64,000 nt of DNA from Wenzhouxiangella sp. XN24. Lineage in GTDB: Bacteria > Pseudomonadota > Gammaproteobacteria > Steroidobacterales > XN24. The translations under genes and the position numbers were made by a program. The notes under the pieces were generated by a model. It was given only the letters and a program-made list of their open reading frames with translations. It was not told the origin of the DNA and did no database searches. Numbering within the stretch: the first letter of the stretch is position 1; each line of letters begins with the position of its first letter. The stretch is from the NCBI RefSeq assembly GCF_011064545.1, contig NZ_JAAMFG010000021.1, forward strand, positions 1 to 64,000. Reading direction: 5' to 3'. Positions 18,212 to 29,970 of this stretch are shown here, one piece after another.

Positions 18212-18625
18212 TCACACGAGATGGTCGGCCACATAGCGTGCCATCGCTTCCTCGGCGAACAGCACTTCGACGTCCCCCAGCTTGCGCAGGATCTTCGCAT
18301 GCAACTCGTCGATGCCCTTGATCAGCACGCGCTCCGCGCCGTGCTCCAGCGCCAGCATCGTCGTGACGATGCTGCGGTTGGCATGGTCGCCGAGCGAGAT
18401 GAACACCGCGTCCGCATTCGGCAGATCCAGGGCCTCGAGCACCTCTTCGTCTGCACCGTCGGCCACCAGGGCCTCCGCGAGGCAATGCTCGACCCGTTGC
18501 ACCGCGGCCTCGTCGATGTCCACGCCGGTGACCTTGTGGCCGTTTTTCGCCAGGCGTTCGGCCAGGGCGCCGCCGAAGCGTCCGAGGCCGATGACGATGA
18601 AGCGGGAATGCTTTTTCTCAGCCAA
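18212..18625 (-). CDS. KtrA/TrkA-type RCK_N protein lacking the RCK_C domain
   Basis: RCK subunits bind nucleotides and gate potassium uptake channels. This one has a complete Rossmann-type RCK_N domain (VIGLGRFGGALAERLA at 11-26, GVDIDE, then DGADEEVL), but ends at residue 137 with MARYVADHLV. KtrA proteins are normally about 220 residues with a C-terminal RCK_C. I read the downstream DNA in all frames and found no RCK_C piece, and only 154 bases separate it from the next gene. It overlaps the ktrB stop by 8 bases, so the two are coupled. Confidence 0.88.
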   Translation of the reverse strand: MAEKKHSRFIVIGLGRFGGALAERLAKNGHKVTGVDIDEAAVQRVEHCLAEALVADGADEEVLEALDLPNADAVFISLGDHANRSIVTTMLALEHGAERVLIKGIDELHAKILRKLGDVEVLFAEEAMARYVADHLV

Positions 18626-20000
18626 TGATCACCTCACTTTGCGGATAGCGGATTTTAGGGCCCTGCGGACGGCGCAGCAGGGAGGAGGCCATCGCCAGCG
18701 GCCCGACGCGCCCGAGTAGCATCATGAGGACCACCACGAGTTGTCCACCCTCGCTGAGCCGCCCGGTGGCGCCCGTGGAAAGGCCCACGGTGCCGAGGGC
18801 GGAAATCGCCTCGAAAACCACGTCGAGGAACTCTCCCTGCGCGGTCGCCCGCTGCAGATCGCGAGTCTCGAGCACCAGCAGCAGGGCGGCGCCGACGACC
18901 AGCACGACGAGATAGGTCGCCGTGACCGTGACCGCGAGCAGCAGGGCGCGGTCGGAGACGCGCCGGTGGAACGCGTTCATCTGCCAGTCGTGGCGCACCA
19001 GCGCCTTGGCCTGCAACGCCAGCACGGCGACCGTGGAGACCTTGATGCCGCCCGCGGTAGAACACGAGCTGCCGCCGATCATCATCAGCAGCATGAGGAC
19101 GAACAGCGAGGGGTAGACCATGCTCTCGATCGGGAGGGTCGAAAACCCCGCGGATCGTGCGGTGACACTCTGGAAAAGCGCGTTGACCACGGCATCGCCC
19201 GGGCCCATGTCCGCCAGGGCCTGGCCGCGCTCCAGCCACCAGATGGCAATGGTGCCGCCGATCACGAGAAACAGGGTGGCGGTGACGACGAGGCGCGTGT
19301 GGAACCGCAGGCTGCGCCGGTCGCGACCTTTCTTCCTCACGTGGCGCAGGTCGAGCAGTACCGGGAACCCGAGTCCTCCGGCGATGATCAATCCCGCCAT
19401 CACCAGGATCACGGCGGGATCGCCTGCCCAGGGCGCGAGACTGGCATCCTGCAGCGAGATGCCCGAGTTGCAGAACCCCGATACCGAATGGAACACGGCC
19501 CACCAGAGCACGTCGAGGAACGGTCCGTCCCCGAGCCGCGCCAGCAGCAGCGCGATCGCGCCGACCGCTTCGATGGCGAGGGTCACGGCCGCCACCAGGA
19601 GGATCAGTCGCTTCACGTCGGCGCCGAGAGGCGCGCCGAGCGTTTCCTTGGTGAGCACATGGAAGCGGACCGGCTGCCTTCCGGTGGCGCTCACGAAGAG
19701 GAGCGTACCGATCGACATGATGCCGAAGCCGCCGAGCTGGATGAGCGCCAGGACGACCGCCTGGCCGGTGAAGCTCAGCTGCGACTCGACCGACAGCACC
19801 ATCAGCCCGGTGACGGTGGAGGCGCTGGCGGCGGTGAACAGCGCATCGATGAAACCGAAAGGCGCCACGCCGGGCGCGCGGCAGGCCGGTAGCAAAAGGA
19901 CCAGGGTGCCGACAGCGATCAGCCCCAGGTACCAGGAGAACAGCGCACGGGATGGATAGTCGGCGATGACGCCGACGTACCTGACCAGTCGGGTCTGCAC
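18618..20000 (-). CDS. ktrB: Potassium uptake channel subunit, KtrB/TrkH family
   Basis: This 460-residue membrane protein imports K+ (often with Na+). Four pore repeats are recognisable: SASTVTGLMV, SVSGFCNSGISL, TARSAGFSTLPI and ALGTVGLSTGATG, each supplying the filter Gly. The length fits KtrB better than TrkH (about 480). The RCK_N subunit gene overlaps its end. Confidence 0.92.
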   Translation of the reverse strand: MQTRLVRYVGVIADYPSRALFSWYLGLIAVGTLVLLLPACRAPGVAPFGFIDALFTAASASTVTGLMVLSVESQLSFTGQAVVLALIQLGGFGIMSIGTLLFVSATGRQPVRFHVLTKETLGAPLGADVKRLILLVAAVTLAIEAVGAIALLLARLGDGPFLDVLWWAVFHSVSGFCNSGISLQDASLAPWAGDPAVILVMAGLIIAGGLGFPVLLDLRHVRKKGRDRRSLRFHTRLVVTATLFLVIGGTIAIWWLERGQALADMGPGDAVVNALFQSVTARSAGFSTLPIESMVYPSLFVLMLLMMIGGSSCSTAGGIKVSTVAVLALQAKALVRHDWQMNAFHRRVSDRALLLAVTVTATYLVVLVVGAALLLVLETRDLQRATAQGEFLDVVFEAISALGTVGLSTGATGRLSEGGQLVVVLMMLLGRVGPLAMASSLLRRPQGPKIRYPQSEVIIG

Positions 20001-24268: not shown

Positions 24269-26860
24269 CTACGATGTCCCGCCGGAGGATGGCCCGGAAC
24301 CCTGACCTCCTCGCGAGCCGGGCCCGGGATCGGGTGATGACGCTGCGTCGCTCGCGGGGGCATCGCCGACCTCGGGAGAGCGAACCGCGCCGATCCGCGC
24401 GACGGCGGCGGAGTCCACCGAGCGGAGGTGAAGGTCGCGTTGCGGGAAGGGGATCTCGATTCCCGATTCGTACAGCGCATCGTGCACGGCGAGCGTCAGG
24501 TCGCTCTTGATGGTGAGGTAGTTGTTGAAATCGTCCGTCCACGCGCGGAGCGAGAAATCCAGCGAGCTGTCGCCGAAGCCGAGAAACAGCGCGGCGGGTT
24601 CCGGGTCCTCGAGAACTTTCTCGTTGCGACGCGCCACGGCCAGGAGCAGTTCGATCACTTTGCGGGGATCCGTGCCGTAGGCCACGCCGGCCAGGATCTC
24701 GATGCGCCGGCGCATATCGGACAACGTCCAGTTGGTGACTTCGTTGGATATCAGGTTGGCGTTCGGCACGATCACCTCGGCGCCGTCGAAAGTGCGCACC
24801 GTGCTGGAGCGCACGCCGATGCGCGTGACGTTGCCGAACGTCTCGGTGAACTCGATGGTATCGCCGGATTGCACCGGGCGCTCGAAGGCCAGGATCAGGC
24901 CGGACACGAAGTTGTTGACCACGTTCTGCAGCCCGAAACCGATGCCGACGGAAAGTGCGCCCACGATGATCGCGAAACGATCGAGCTGGATGCCGGCGGC
25001 CGCCACGGCGAACACGACGGCGATGCCCAGGATCGTGTAGTTGACCAGCATCGAGATGGTGGCCGCCACGCCCCGCGGCAACGTGACCCGCGGGAACACG
25101 TCCACGTCGAGCACGAAGCGCAGCAGTCGCGAGAGGAGCAGGCCCAGCCAGATCGCGAGCGCGAAACCGAGGATGTCGCCGAGCGATATCGACACCGTTC
25201 CGATCCTGGCCCTGCTGAACAATATTCCGGAAACCACCTGGCCGAGCAGGCCATCGAGACGAAACAGCCGGAGGGTGGCCACGATCCAGCCGATGAGCAC
25301 GACGAACGGCAGGATGCGCATCACCCAGCCGTCGATGGCGGCACTGTGCCAGCGGACGAGGTTCGATTTTCTCAACAGCTGCGTCTGCAGCATCGCGTTG
25401 AGCGCAGCCCGCGTGACGACGACCCCGGCGAACAGCACGATGCCGGCAAACGCGCTGCCGATCACCGCATTGGTGAGCAAACCCGCCAGTGACACATAGC
25501 CGCCGATATTTGCCAGCAGCGCGGTCAACAGGACCAGGCTGCCGGCTCGTCCGGCGAAACGCACCGCCCGCCACCATGGTCCCGCCTCGAGCTTCGCCGC
25601 CGGCCCGCCGGGACGGAACATCAGGGCGGCGACCGCGAGCGCCGCAGTGGTGAGCAAGAGCAGCGTGTAGCGCTCCAGGCTGGTCCCCGTGCCGAGCAGG
25701 ATATCCATCCGCAACAACGCATACAGGGCGATGACCTGGTAAAGGGGGCCCCGCAAAACCGGGCTGACGATGGGCGGCAGCATGCGCAGCAATGGCAGGA
25801 TCAGCAAGACGCCGAACAGCTCCCTCAGTACCGGTGGCGCGTCCGGGTAGAGCCACGCGCCGGCGAGAATCGCCATGACGAGCGCGGCGGCGAGGGGGAA
25901 ACGGAATATGGCGAGCGTCGGGGCGAGCCCGGGCCTGTCGCCGACCCATTGGTCGACCTTGCGTGCCAGCGCGAAGAAGAATACGAGCAGCAACACCAGC
26001 AAACCGGCATGGAGGGCAAGGGCGCCTTCCCTGGCCGCCAGGTAATTCTGCAGCGCCTGCCAGTCGCCTTGCCATGCGTGCCGGGAGCCCTGGAGGTCGC
26101 CGAGCGAGATGTCACTGCGCCAGATCGCCGGATGCTCGGGCTCGAACAATTCGGCGCCCGCTTGCGCCATGGCCGCTTCGAGGATTTCGCGTCGTTCCTC
26201 GACGGGCGTGCGCCAGCGCGTCAGTTGCGCCTGCATGGCCAGGATCGTTTCCAGGCGTCCATCGACGACCTGCCGGGCGTCCTCGAGCGCATCTTGCAGG
26301 TTGTCGACGCTTTCGAGCAGTTCGGCGGGAGCGTCCCCCCCGGCCAGCGCTTCCCGGGTCAGGCGCCAGGTCTCGCTCGCCTGTTGCAGCGACTCCAGCC
26401 GCTGGCCGAGTTCGCTGCCGCGCCGGGCAAGCGGCAAGCGTAGCGAAGTCAGGTCGCGGCGCAGCCCGTTGACCCGTTCCAGGGCATTCTCGAGGCTCCG
26501 CAAGTCGGTGGCCGGCAGGGGTTCGTCGAGTGTCTCGAGGCGCGTTTCGAGCCCCGTGAGCTGCTCGGCAATCGACTCGACTTCCGGGTCGGGCCGGGCG
26601 GCATTCACCGCGCGCCGCACGAGTTCCCGTCCCTCGTCCAGCCGGTCCGGCACCGCTTGCAGGGGGACCGCCCTCAGTGGCGCAGGCGCCGTTTCCTCGG
26701 CAGGCTCCTCGGTCTCGGCCCTGTCCGGCACGCTGATTCCCGGGAGGACCTGGGCGATGGCCGGCGCGCCGGCAGAGAGACCGCAGGCGATGCAGAGCAC
26801 GGCCAGGAGCAGCATGGCGGCGCGGGGCGATGACTTCGCAGGCGGCATGGCGCAATCCAT
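24269..26860 (-). CDS. Large MscS-family mechanosensitive channel (DUF3772-type)
   Basis: This 863-residue protein would release solutes under hypo-osmotic stress. It has a signal peptide (MLLLAVLCIACGLSAGAPAIAQ), a periplasmic coiled-coil-rich region (about 60-300, matching DUF3772 as far as I recall), multiple hydrophobic helices (about 310-600), then the MscS pore and beta domain (GIGFGLQNVVNNFVSGLIL, then VRSSTVRTFDGAEVIVPNA). The last about 40 residues are a disordered Ser/Gly-rich tail. The ATG at 26860 is chosen with an upstream GGGAG; the frame stays open far upstream, but that part is antisense to the SDR gene. Confidence 0.88.
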   Translation of the reverse strand: MDCAMPPAKSSPRAAMLLLAVLCIACGLSAGAPAIAQVLPGISVPDRAETEEPAEETAPAPLRAVPLQAVPDRLDEGRELVRRAVNAARPDPEVESIAEQLTGLETRLETLDEPLPATDLRSLENALERVNGLRRDLTSLRLPLARRGSELGQRLESLQQASETWRLTREALAGGDAPAELLESVDNLQDALEDARQVVDGRLETILAMQAQLTRWRTPVEERREILEAAMAQAGAELFEPEHPAIWRSDISLGDLQGSRHAWQGDWQALQNYLAAREGALALHAGLLVLLLVFFFALARKVDQWVGDRPGLAPTLAIFRFPLAAALVMAILAGAWLYPDAPPVLRELFGVLLILPLLRMLPPIVSPVLRGPLYQVIALYALLRMDILLGTGTSLERYTLLLLTTAALAVAALMFRPGGPAAKLEAGPWWRAVRFAGRAGSLVLLTALLANIGGYVSLAGLLTNAVIGSAFAGIVLFAGVVVTRAALNAMLQTQLLRKSNLVRWHSAAIDGWVMRILPFVVLIGWIVATLRLFRLDGLLGQVVSGILFSRARIGTVSISLGDILGFALAIWLGLLLSRLLRFVLDVDVFPRVTLPRGVAATISMLVNYTILGIAVVFAVAAAGIQLDRFAIIVGALSVGIGFGLQNVVNNFVSGLILAFERPVQSGDTIEFTETFGNVTRIGVRSSTVRTFDGAEVIVPNANLISNEVTNWTLSDMRRRIEILAGVAYGTDPRKVIELLLAVARRNEKVLEDPEPAALFLGFGDSSLDFSLRAWTDDFNNYLTIKSDLTLAVHDALYESGIEIPFPQRDLHLRSVDSAAVARIGAVRSPEVGDAPASDAASSPDPGPGSRGGQGSGPSSGGTS

Positions 26861-26980
26861 TCTTGAAACAAACTCCCGTAGCTTAGATCCCTGGCCCATG
26901 TTGCACACGTTTCCGGCCGCCGCATCCATGTCGGTCCACAGGACGAAAGCGACGCTGAATTCTACGCCACTGGTGAAGAC

Positions 26981-27772
26981 ATGAACCCTCCGGCGCCGGA
27001 CCCCGTGCTCGCCAGCTTTCCCCAACCCTTCACCGCGCTGGTCGCCGGGGCGAATCGCGGCATCGGCCTGGCTTTCGTCCGGCACCTCGTGGCGGGCGGG
27101 CAGGCGCGACGGATCTGGGCGGGCTGTCGGGACCCGGAGGCGGCCGGGGAACTGGCCGAGCTCGCCGCCGTCGCGCCGGCCGTGCGCATCCTGCAACTCG
27201 ACGTCACCGACGAGCAGGTCCTCGCCGACGCCGCCCGGGAGGCGGGCGAAGAAGGCTCGACGGTCGAGTTGCTGATCAACTGCGCCGGATTCCTGCACAG
27301 GCCGGGTGGACCGCAACCGGAACGGCGTCTTGCCGAGGTCCGCGCAGACTGGCTCCAGGAGTCGTTCGCGGTCAACGCGGCCGGCCCGTTGTTGCTGGCC
27401 AAGCACTTCGAGCGGCTGTTGCCGCGGCGGGATCGTGTCGTGTTCGCGAGCCTCTCCGCCCGCGTGGGCAGCATCGGCGACAACCGGCTCGGCGGCTGGT
27501 ATGCCTATCGTGCGGCCAAGGCGGCGCAGAACATGTTCATCCGGACGTTATCCATCGAGCTGGCACGTCGCGCGCGCGGTTCGATCTGTGTCGCCTTGCA
27601 TCCCGGCACCACCGACACCGGCCTGTCGCGCCCGTTCCAGGCCGGTGTTCCCGAGGGCAAGCTGTTCAACACGGCGTTTTCGGCCGGGCGGCTGCTCGCG
27701 GTGATCGACGGGCTGAAACGCGACGACACCGGCGGATTCTTCGCCTGGAACGGGGAGCGAATTCCCTGGTGA
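26981..27772 (+). CDS. SDR-family oxidoreductase (C-factor-like)
   Basis: This 263-residue short-chain dehydrogenase has the cofactor motif AGANRGIGLAF, NCAGFLH, a catalytic Ser (ASLSARVGSIGDN) and YRAAKAAQNM. The GSIxDN and RAAKAALN features are those of the CsgA/C-factor subgroup. It is divergent from the MscS gene (120-base gap) and converges on the arm-like membrane gene with 18 bases between stops. The substrate is unknown. Confidence 0.92.
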   Translation: MNPPAPDPVLASFPQPFTALVAGANRGIGLAFVRHLVAGGQARRIWAGCRDPEAAGELAELAAVAPAVRILQLDVTDEQVLADAAREAGEEGSTVELLINCAGFLHRPGGPQPERRLAEVRADWLQESFAVNAAGPLLLAKHFERLLPRRDRVVFASLSARVGSIGDNRLGGWYAYRAAKAAQNMFIRTLSIELARRARGSICVALHPGTTDTGLSRPFQAGVPEGKLFNTAFSAGRLLAVIDGLKRDDTGGFFAWNGERIPW

Positions 27773-27790: not shown

Positions 27791-28180
27791 TCAGCGCAGC
27801 AGCCAGACCACCGCGAGGCCCAGCAATGCGGCGAAGCCAAGGCCCAGGCCGAACGCCAGCAGGGGCTTGTCTTCGAGAAGGCCGACGAAAAAGCCGCGGC
27901 GGGGCGCCGCGGCGCTGAGCTCGCCGGAGCGGGCCAGTTCGCTTTCCACCGCGAGGATGCGGCGCGCCTGCGCGAGCGCCTCGCGGGCGCCGTCCGCGTT
28001 GAGTTCCGGAAACAGGCCGAGGGTCCGGCGGCGCGCGAAACCGTCCACCGAATAGACCAGCACCCAGCACTTCGTGCCGTTGGGAAACACCGAGAACACC
28101 AGCCCTTCCCCCAGCGGGGTGTCGTAGCGGCGTTCTTTCGGCGGCAGGTCGCGAAAATAGTCGTCCGTCAGCTTGCTCAT
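27791..28180 (-). CDS. Membrane-anchored protein with an integrase arm-type (DUF4102-like) domain
   Basis: The first about 80 residues (LGEGLVFSVFPNGTKCWVLV, RRTLGLFPELNADGAREAL, ARRIL) closely follow the arm-type DNA-binding domain that normally begins tyrosine integrases. No integrase core follows; instead there is a linker and one C-terminal transmembrane helix (about 108-128). The total is 129 residues. Its ATG overlaps the stop of the CPA2 antiporter gene (ATGA), so it is translated with it. This is not an integrase fragment in a mobile element as far as I can see, since no att site, tRNA or phage gene is nearby. The function is unknown. Confidence 0.82.
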   Translation of the reverse strand: MSKLTDDYFRDLPPKERRYDTPLGEGLVFSVFPNGTKCWVLVYSVDGFARRRTLGLFPELNADGAREALAQARRILAVESELARSGELSAAAPRRGFFVGLLEDKPLLAFGLGLGFAALLGLAVVWLLR

Positions 28181-29970
28181 TTCTCTTTGGCCTTCACCGC
28201 GCTTTCCACGTCATGTTCGTCGCTATGGAACAGGAACGCGAGTTCCCGTTCAGCCTCGCGGACCGTCTGCACGAGGCGGCCCTCGTCCTGGTCCACCGCG
28301 CGTTCCCGCTCCAGCAGGTTCTCGTCGAAGCGGCGGAACTGGCGGATGCTGTCGGCCGCCATGTCCGGCGGATCGCCAAGCGCCTGCAACAGGTTCTCCG
28401 CCATTTCCAGGCTCGACACGTAGTTTTCGCGAATGACGTAGTCCACGTTCCGGTTGCGCAAGGCCCGCGCATGGGCGCGATCGGTGGCGCGGGCAAATAT
28501 CTTCAGGTGCGGGAAATGGTGTTTCACCAGTTCGACCGTGCGCACGGAAGCCTCGATATCCTCGATGGCGACCACGAACAGCTTGGCTTTTTCCACGTGC
28601 GCCGCGCGCAACAAATCCAGGCGCGTCGTGTCGCCGTAATAGACGACGTTGCCGAAGCGGCGCACGAAGTCGACCTGCCGGCTGTCGGACTCGAGCGCGG
28701 TGAAGGGGATCCGGCGCATGTTCAGGACGCGCGCTACGACCTGGCCGAAGCGACCGAGGCCGGCGATGATGACCTCGTGGTCGCGATCGGATTCCACCTT
28801 GTCCCATTCACGCTGGTCTTCCTTCTCGCGGGTGGCCCGGCCGACGCGTTCATCGGCGATCACCAGGAAGGGCGTCGCCATCATGGACAGGCTGACGACC
28901 AGGATCAGCAGCTCGAACAGCTCGCGATCGATGAGGTTGCCCTGCAATGCGGCGGCGAACAGGACGAAGGCGAATTCGCCGCCCTGGGCGAGCACGAACG
29001 CCAGGCTGCGCGCCGAGCTGGTCGGCAGGCCGCTGAGCCGGCCGACCACGAACAGCACCAGCGCTTTCAGGGCGATCAACGCCACGGTCATGGCGATGAT
29101 CCGCCAGGGTATTTCGACCAGCAGGCCGAGGTTGGTGGACATCCCGACGGCGACGAAGAACAGGCCGAGCAGCAGGCCCTTGAAGGGCTCGATCTCGGCC
29201 TCCAGTTCGTGGCGGAACTCGGAATCCGCCAGCAGCACGCCGGCGAGGAAGGCGCCGAGCCCGGCCGAGAGCCCGACCTGGGTCATCAGCAGCGCGGAGC
29301 CGACCACCACCACCAGTGCAGTGGCCGTGAATATCTCGTGGCCCCCGTCGCGGGCCGCGATCCGGAACATCGGCCGCAACAGCCAGCGACCGCCCGCAAT
29401 CAGGGCCAGCACGGCGCCGATCTGCAACACGTACCCGCTGCCTGAGACCGGCGTGCCGCCGGCCCCCGGGGCGAGCATCGGGATCAGGGCGAGCAGTGGA
29501 ATGACGGCGATATCCTGCAACAGCAGGATGGTGAAGGCGGTCCGGCCGTGCCGCGTCGTCAGTTGCCGGCGCTCGGCCAGCAATTGGAGCACGAAGGCCG
29601 TGGAGGACAGTGCCAGGATCAGGCCGACGATCAGCGCCGATTTCCACGCCAGGCCGAAAGCGATTGCCGCGCCCGCCAGCACTGCGCCGGTGACGAGGAC
29701 CTGCGCTGCACCGGTGCCGAAGATGCCGCGCCGGAGCGCCCACAGGCGGGTCGGCTGCAATTCCAGCCCGATGATGAACAGCAGCAGGACCACGCCGAAC
29801 TCGGCCAGGTGGAGAATCCGGTCGACGTCGGCGAACAGCTTCAGTCCCCAGGGCCCGATGATGATGCCCGCCGCGAGGTAGCCGAGGATCGAGCCGAAAC
29901 CGAGCCGACGGGCGATGGGCACGGCGATCACGGCGGCTACGAGATACGCGAGCAGTTCGGTCAGCGACAT
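28177..29970 (-). CDS. CPA2 cation:proton antiporter with an RCK_N domain (KefB/YbaL-like)
   Basis: This 597-residue protein has about 12-13 hydrophobic segments (1-385), a short charged linker (about 390-415) and a cytoplasmic TrkA-N/RCK_N domain (about 418-535, IIAGLGRFGQVVARVL, then ALESDSRQVDF). A C-terminal charged helix follows. Homologues exchange K+ or Na+ for H+, and some are glutathione-gated. The next gene starts within its stop codon. Confidence 0.92.
   Translation of the reverse strand: MSLTELLAYLVAAVIAVPIARRLGFGSILGYLAAGIIIGPWGLKLFADVDRILHLAEFGVVLLLFIIGLELQPTRLWALRRGIFGTGAAQVLVTGAVLAGAAIAFGLAWKSALIVGLILALSSTAFVLQLLAERRQLTTRHGRTAFTILLLQDIAVIPLLALIPMLAPGAGGTPVSGSGYVLQIGAVLALIAGGRWLLRPMFRIAARDGGHEIFTATALVVVVGSALLMTQVGLSAGLGAFLAGVLLADSEFRHELEAEIEPFKGLLLGLFFVAVGMSTNLGLLVEIPWRIIAMTVALIALKALVLFVVGRLSGLPTSSARSLAFVLAQGGEFAFVLFAAALQGNLIDRELFELLILVVSLSMMATPFLVIADERVGRATREKEDQREWDKVESDRDHEVIIAGLGRFGQVVARVLNMRRIPFTALESDSRQVDFVRRFGNVVYYGDTTRLDLLRAAHVEKAKLFVVAIEDIEASVRTVELVKHHFPHLKIFARATDRAHARALRNRNVDYVIRENYVSSLEMAENLLQALGDPPDMAADSIRQFRRFDENLLERERAVDQDEGRLVQTVREAERELAFLFHSDEHDVESAVKAKEK

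Follow-up and report, generated by a model that had tools for sequence, protein, structure and literature searches.

A membrane-anchored integrase-type arm domain in Wenzhouxiangella sp. XN24 appears to be the short form of a conserved arm-TM-DUF2914 protein family

ToxR and CadC are one-component regulators with a cytoplasmic winged helix-turn-helix DNA-binding domain, one membrane helix, and a periplasmic domain, and the ancillary proteins KefF and KefG of Kef antiporters are flavodoxin-like. The arm domain belongs to another setting: in PMC8138268 (Smyshlyaev et al.), it is described as a component of mobile-element recombinases, and finding it within a tyrosine recombinase counts as strong evidence for a mobile-element integrase. 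Neither a membrane-anchored arm domain nor an architecture of arm domain, membrane helix, and DUF2914 (arm-TM-DUF2914) was found in the literature covered, which lay mostly outside subscription journals and is weak evidence of absence; publications naming DUF2914 included none relevant to this architecture.

The window analyzed here is a stretch of 64,000 nt from Wenzhouxiangella sp. XN24. An open reading frame on its reverse strand (27791 to 28180; ATG start at 28178 to 28180, stop at 27791 to 27793) encodes a protein of 129 residues and is supported as a gene by the frame itself, by Pfam, and by dN/dS within the genus. Residues 5 through 77 match PF13356 (Arm-DNA-bind_3; E = 6.7e-9, 36.2 bits against a curated cut-off of 27). 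No other Pfam domain is found in the protein at E ≤ 1, be it a winged helix-turn-helix domain or a flavodoxin-like fold, and neither the PF00589 catalytic domain nor DUF2914 (PF11141) gives a match. In the AF2 model, pLDDT is 94 to 98 for residues 11 through 80 and 81 for residues 1 through 10, and a Foldseek search with this model returns only three PDB entries at E ≤ 0.001, namely 3JTZ, 3RMP, and 3JU0 (E = 3e-6 to 5e-5; best figure 3.1e-6 for 3JTZ). Profile and structure comparison thus agree on an arm-type domain in residues 1 through 80 (27941 to 28180, reverse strand), predicted to be cytoplasmic; the first-pass annotation had proposed such a domain from the letters of the DNA, and the possibility that searches would reveal no arm similarity is not borne out. 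A short linker joins the domain to a membrane helix at the extreme C terminus (approximately residues 107 through 128; 27797 to 27862, reverse strand). The helix is clear by hydropathy, with a single hydrophobic segment past residue 60 (about 107 through 125; mean Kyte-Doolittle value 2.43, runner-up 0.51), in keeping with the single transmembrane helix first described; AF2 places a helix at residues 106 through 128 at lower confidence (pLDDT 65 to 75). Elsewhere in the same genome, contig C30 carries one more complete PF13356 match, within a frame of integrase length (226717 to 226944), and contig C34 a sub-cut-off match in an 85-residue frame (367959 to 368123).

What the first-pass annotation overlooked is the wider family: the window protein is an arm-TM-DUF2914 protein in shortened form. 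On sequence grounds it is the short form of a conserved family in which an arm domain is followed by one membrane helix, a Pro/Ala/Thr-rich linker, and DUF2914, an architecture that we regard as nearly certain. Matches to the window protein occur in 27 of 59 relatives' genomes; the stronger ones are not integrases but proteins with an arm domain and a membrane helix, mostly continuing into a linker and a C-terminal DUF2914. When 247 genomes of the order are searched, the members of the family score at least 78 bits, bar one N-terminally truncated copy (50 bits), and integrase-type matches reach 70 bits at most. Members were counted in 15 genomes, four of them with a second copy, and on two MAG contigs (L101, labeled Sedimenticola sp., and L104, labeled Candidatus Polarisedimenticolaceae). 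Homologs with an arm domain and a hydrophobic segment in all of these indicate that the arm-TM arrangement is not due to chance. At E ≤ 0.01, PF13356 is found in 19 and DUF2914 in 17 of 20 aligned members, the alignment leaving out one more (G046 contig 9) that is cut by the contig end; the PF13356 matches of L004, L015, and L143 lie under Pfam's curated cut-off, and L005 gives none. Compared with PDB sequences, a profile of the family arms finds 3JU0 (E = 3e-11) and 3JTZ/3RMP (E = 1.6e-10), the next match lying at E = 0.17, and a long-form relative aligns with 3JTZ by structure in VIA (Z = 12.2 over 77 residues, 1.7 Å). The second copy in G021 (L143, 2716 to 3735, reverse strand) has an arm domain without its N-terminal part, matched by the Pfam profile from position 27 only, and is possibly decaying or misassembled.

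Among 370 genomes sampled from the class and searched at E ≤ 1e-12, all matches besides the window's own score 61 bits or less and look like integrases by their frame length. A DNA pattern scan of genome contigs, in which the pattern demands Phe at position 32 and so misses Leu-type members, yielded 19 stretches; by the arm profile, eight are family members (L101 and L104 being new), two match weakly (17 bits) and are of another kind, and nine have no match. Phage and plasmid records (93 and 75 matching, respectively) gave partial matches only, with less than 60% identity and none spanning 80% of the query; nine of the best 10 of the 93 phage matches and seven of the best 10 of the 75 plasmid matches are named integrase or recombinase.

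One best hydrophobic segment follows the arm domain in all 20 aligned members, with a mean hydropathy of at least 1.6 in 18 and weaker values in L009 and L012 (1.34 and 1.45). In 16 of the 17 long forms the 15-residue flank preceding the helix is more basic than the 15 residues that follow, and in L143 the two flanks are equal; in the short forms almost no residues follow the hydrophobic segment. By the positive-inside rule, these flank charges suggest an N-in/C-out topology, with the arm domain cytoplasmic and DUF2914 periplasmic. The model of a long form is of low confidence overall (pLDDT 75, pTM 0.43), and all that we take from it is that DUF2914 is predicted to be a β-sandwich. VIA relates this modeled domain to Ig and macroglobulin domains (Z about 10 to 11), and Foldseek places Unc119/RhoGDI-like β-sandwiches first, with TM-scores of ∼0.2 by query; the Ig/macroglobulin-like fold is common and therefore shows no function.

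DUF2914 is absent from all three genomes of the window's genus, which supply the three aligned members without it, and present in all four others of the bacterial family; the same search finds no DUF2914 elsewhere in the three genus genomes. Their short forms retain nothing after the membrane helix, and a DUF2914 remnant downstream of the arm gene was not found in any of the three. In the window, a convergent short-chain dehydrogenase gene (26981 to 27772, forward strand), which also adjoins the arm gene in the genus-mates G001 and G002, ends 18 bp from the arm gene stop and leaves no room for a DUF2914 domain. This spacing, together with the missing remnant, suggests that the domain was removed cleanly or replaced. 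Compared in pairs, the three short forms give dN/dS values of 0.18 to 0.26 (Nei-Gojobori), at dS values of 0.74 to 0.99 that are near 1 in two of the three pairs; the differences fall mostly at third codon positions, and conservation extends to the membrane helix and its end. These values point to a short form that is under purifying selection and not decaying. In G006, of the same bacterial family, the region before the membrane helix of a DUF2914 protein (L168) is a run of N, and no antiporter match lies within the 14 kb around it.

The arm domain derives from integrases, and the order contains other, truncated frames with an arm alone (e.g., L089 and L091), which lends something to the idea that the arm-TM gene is a decaying integrase fragment left by a mobile element. 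Against this stand the single architecture shared by 20 proteins, 17 of them with DUF2914, the purifying selection just described, and a tree in which the family arms split from 41 integrase-type arms with support of 99/98 and as a single change in 99% of the 200 bootstrap trees; the tree is built on 80 columns and contains one long branch, L015, and the loss of charge common to the family arms may contribute to their grouping. A recombinase region was seen in the translations of L016 through L020 and most of L081 through L094, where several translations are cut short, the integrase-type rows L114 through L139 standing outside that check. On C21, the 282-kb contig that holds the window, there is no catalytic recombinase domain at E ≤ 0.001, the window and 19 family neighborhoods contain no tRNA, and no direct repeats of at least 18 nt occur between 25500 and 31500, where one 18-nt inverted pair (94%) is present. 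The original observation that nothing around the gene points to a mobile element is upheld by these three results, and the homologs are not of the kind it had weighed as an alternative, namely decaying integrase fragments beside attachment sites. Given dN/dS, the separate tree group, and the lack of recombinase domain, tRNA, and direct repeats, we reject the integrase fragment as a candidate and consider it exceedingly improbable.

The family arms differ markedly from integrase-type arms in charge. Over the same alignment columns, net charge averages −1.37 (−6 to 5) in 19 family arms versus +8.63 (4 to 16) in the 41 integrase-type arms (Mann-Whitney p = 5e-10, the test treating related sequences as independent), 19 of which come from the same order as the window genome and average +8.05. 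L143, with its incomplete arm, and L125 and L126, in the wrong frame, were left out of this comparison and of the tree; when they are included, over slightly different columns, the means are −1.55 (n = 20) and +8.30 (n = 43). Positions 40, 42, and 44, which alternate along one strand, and position 48 after it are basic in 66 to 85% of integrase-type arms and in 0 to 11% of family arms, where hydrophobic, neutral, or acidic residues take their place. From the strand alternation, the 40/42/44 face is probably the one that faces DNA. All or nearly all family arms keep P33, G35, K37, W39, Y43, T53, G55, P58, and A65. The fold of the arm domain is kept in the family, and its basic DNA-binding surface would be largely lost; of the DNA-binding-like domain proposed in the first-pass annotation, the arm fold stands, but the DNA-binding character is weakened.

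With the basic residues of the strand face gone and the charge negative, integrase-style DNA binding by the family arms is doubtful. A basic cluster at positions 50 through 52 is nevertheless retained: K/R occupies position 37 in all 19 family arms, positions 50 and 51 are basic in 74% and 95%, and positions 52 and 18 are more basic than in integrase-type arms, so some nucleic-acid binding may still be possible. These residues bear on whether the protein is of the ToxR/CadC kind, its arm binding specific DNA from the membrane and, in the long forms, its periplasmic DUF2914 sensing a signal. The fully retained fold, the mostly conserved K/R37 and R50/R51, and a topology that fits by hydropathy and flank charge would suit such a regulator, as would the possible nucleic-acid-associated N-terminal domain (RMF-like, below cut-off) of other single-pass DUF2914 proteins. 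A deficit of about ten positive charge units relative to integrase-type arms and the replacement of the basic residues at 40, 42, 44, and 48 speak against it, and we regard a membrane-tethered DNA-binding regulator as unlikely.

The arm gene start overlaps, in an ATGA, the stop of a gene for a KefB/KefC-like CPA2 antiporter with TrkA_N (28177 to 29970, reverse strand; Pfam Na_H_Exchanger and TrkA_N), as had been noted at first reading. Against NCBIfam, the antiporter scores 691 bits for KefC (under the cut-off of 752) and 278.3 bits for TIGR00932 (over the cut-off of 238.3). In G004 and G005, an ortholog with 56 to 57% identity sits immediately upstream of the arm gene, with gaps of some 60 to 70 bp and no overlap; the orthologous pair is therefore present in three of seven genomes of the bacterial family (the window genome, G004, and G005), G006 being unreadable at the arm. 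In G001 and G002, which keep the arm gene, no antiporter ortholog is found (best matches 28% and 35%), and the arm gene is flanked by the dehydrogenase gene and by an alpha/beta-hydrolase-like gene whose place in the window is on the far side of the antiporter gene. At 14 loci of other lineages the antiporter is missing throughout (0 of 14, in the 4 to 20 kb examined per locus). The pair proposed in the first-pass annotation thus recurs within the bacterial family, in G004 and G005, but a partnership with a cation antiporter is not a theme common to the protein family.

An obligatory antiporter subunit is ruled out by G001, G002, and the 14 loci, where the arm gene is kept without the antiporter. 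A looser version gives the arm-TM protein an accessory or regulatory role, as a subunit that is cotranslated with the KefC-like antiporter and works in a KefF-like way with another fold. It draws on the ATGA overlap, on the pair in three genomes, and on the ancillary proteins known for Kef systems; the same genus-mates and 14 loci count against it, as does the lack of a Pfam match to a flavodoxin-like fold in the window protein, and we think it quite improbable.

Other neighbors vary as well. At seven of the 14 loci the arm gene is next to groEL (L059, L060, L104, L142, and L143) and/or divergent from glnE (L059, L060, and L140 through L143), names that are confirmed by Pfam for L060 only and come from sequence clustering at the other loci. 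At the other seven, neither gene is immediately beside it, with groEL within 8 kb in L062 and L065, and no neighbor gene is common to all lineages among the loci compared. Ordinary chromosomal neighbors that differ between lineages mark the arm gene as a chromosomal resident with shifting neighbors. In the window, two genes near that of the KefC-like antiporter appear by eye to encode a TrkH-type K+ transporter and a mechanosensitive-channel-like protein (18618 to 20000 and 24269 to 27406, reverse strand), and both have counterparts close to the arm gene of G001 and G002. Together they suggest an osmotic/K+ neighborhood around the arm gene, the antiporter being the only one of these three genes checked by Pfam.

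Beyond the family, arm domains are not a general feature of DUF2914 proteins: at 50 DUF2914 loci of the class sample, one of which (L164) has no DUF2914 frame by the small profile, none scores better than E = 2.9 in any frame. By eye, the proteins at these loci mostly look secreted, single-pass without a domain, or multi-pass. Five single-pass DUF2914 proteins (L038, L151, L159, L163, and L165) have, by eye, a short cytoplasmic start of the KLKIRIKL/KIKIKLG type and no domain there. Three others (L049, 685 to 1692, forward strand; L166, 389 to 1291, reverse strand; L167, 346 to 1164, reverse strand) have an N terminus resembling ribosome modulation factor (RMF, PF04957; E = 0.032, 0.0027, and 0.0098, respectively, all below the Pfam cut-off), which hints at a modular platform. 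In its fullest form, a speculation to which we give little weight, single-pass DUF2914 proteins would be a swap-in platform in which a periplasmic Ig-like domain is combined with exchangeable cytoplasmic modules from nucleic-acid machinery (integrase arm, RMF-like), tethering chromosome, ribosome, or their partners to the inner membrane. In the window's genus only the cytoplasmic half of this platform would be left, and in the window species this half apparently shares an operon with a K+ efflux antiporter.

The reading that we rank first, ahead of the DNA-binding regulator and then the antiporter accessory protein, is that the arm fold has been exapted as a membrane-tethered interaction module, a putative function that we hold with about even confidence. 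The family would consist of single-pass inner-membrane proteins encoded on the ordinary chromosome, and we infer vertical inheritance of the arm-TM gene. The N-terminal cytoplasmic domain would be an exapted DUF4102-type integrase arm domain whose fold, tethered to the membrane, may offer a surface on which a cytoplasmic protein or another ligand docks. In the long forms, docking could be controlled by whatever the periplasmic DUF2914 binds; the short form would work only as a membrane-localized cytoplasmic module. In the window species, expression of the arm gene is likely coupled to that of the Kef-type antiporter, a possible but not obligatory partner. Apparently, a group of uncultured bacteria has kept a piece of an integrase for a new job, in which it may no longer grip DNA.

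With the arm apart from any recombinase, anchored in the membrane, its fold kept and its positive charge lost, the family clearly exemplifies a DNA-binding fold of mobile elements put to new use by the host. It also warns that an arm-domain match by itself does not identify an integrase, and it offers a way into the function of DUF2914. Set against known systems, the long forms would share with ToxR and CadC, on their predicted topology, the order of a cytoplasmic DNA-binding-type domain, one membrane helix, and a periplasmic domain, but with an arm fold in place of the winged helix-turn-helix and with DNA binding that is doubtful from the residues present. Like KefF and KefG, the arm-TM protein is encoded beside a Kef-type antiporter gene, which its own gene overlaps; unlike them, it has a modeled arm fold that is not flavodoxin-like, is membrane-anchored, and is kept where the antiporter is absent. 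The window protein itself is without DUF2914, and the 50 DUF2914 loci of the class sample are without an arm domain. Among the 20 aligned members, the 17 long forms carry DUF2914 at their C terminus, an Ig/macroglobulin-like β-sandwich in the model. Compared with the arm domains of IntSXT/P4-type integrases (3JTZ, 3RMP, and 3JU0), the family has no core-binding or catalytic domain, sits on a membrane helix, and has lost the basic strand face, but it shares their fold and the signature P33, G35, K37, W39, Y43, T53, G55, P58, and A65.
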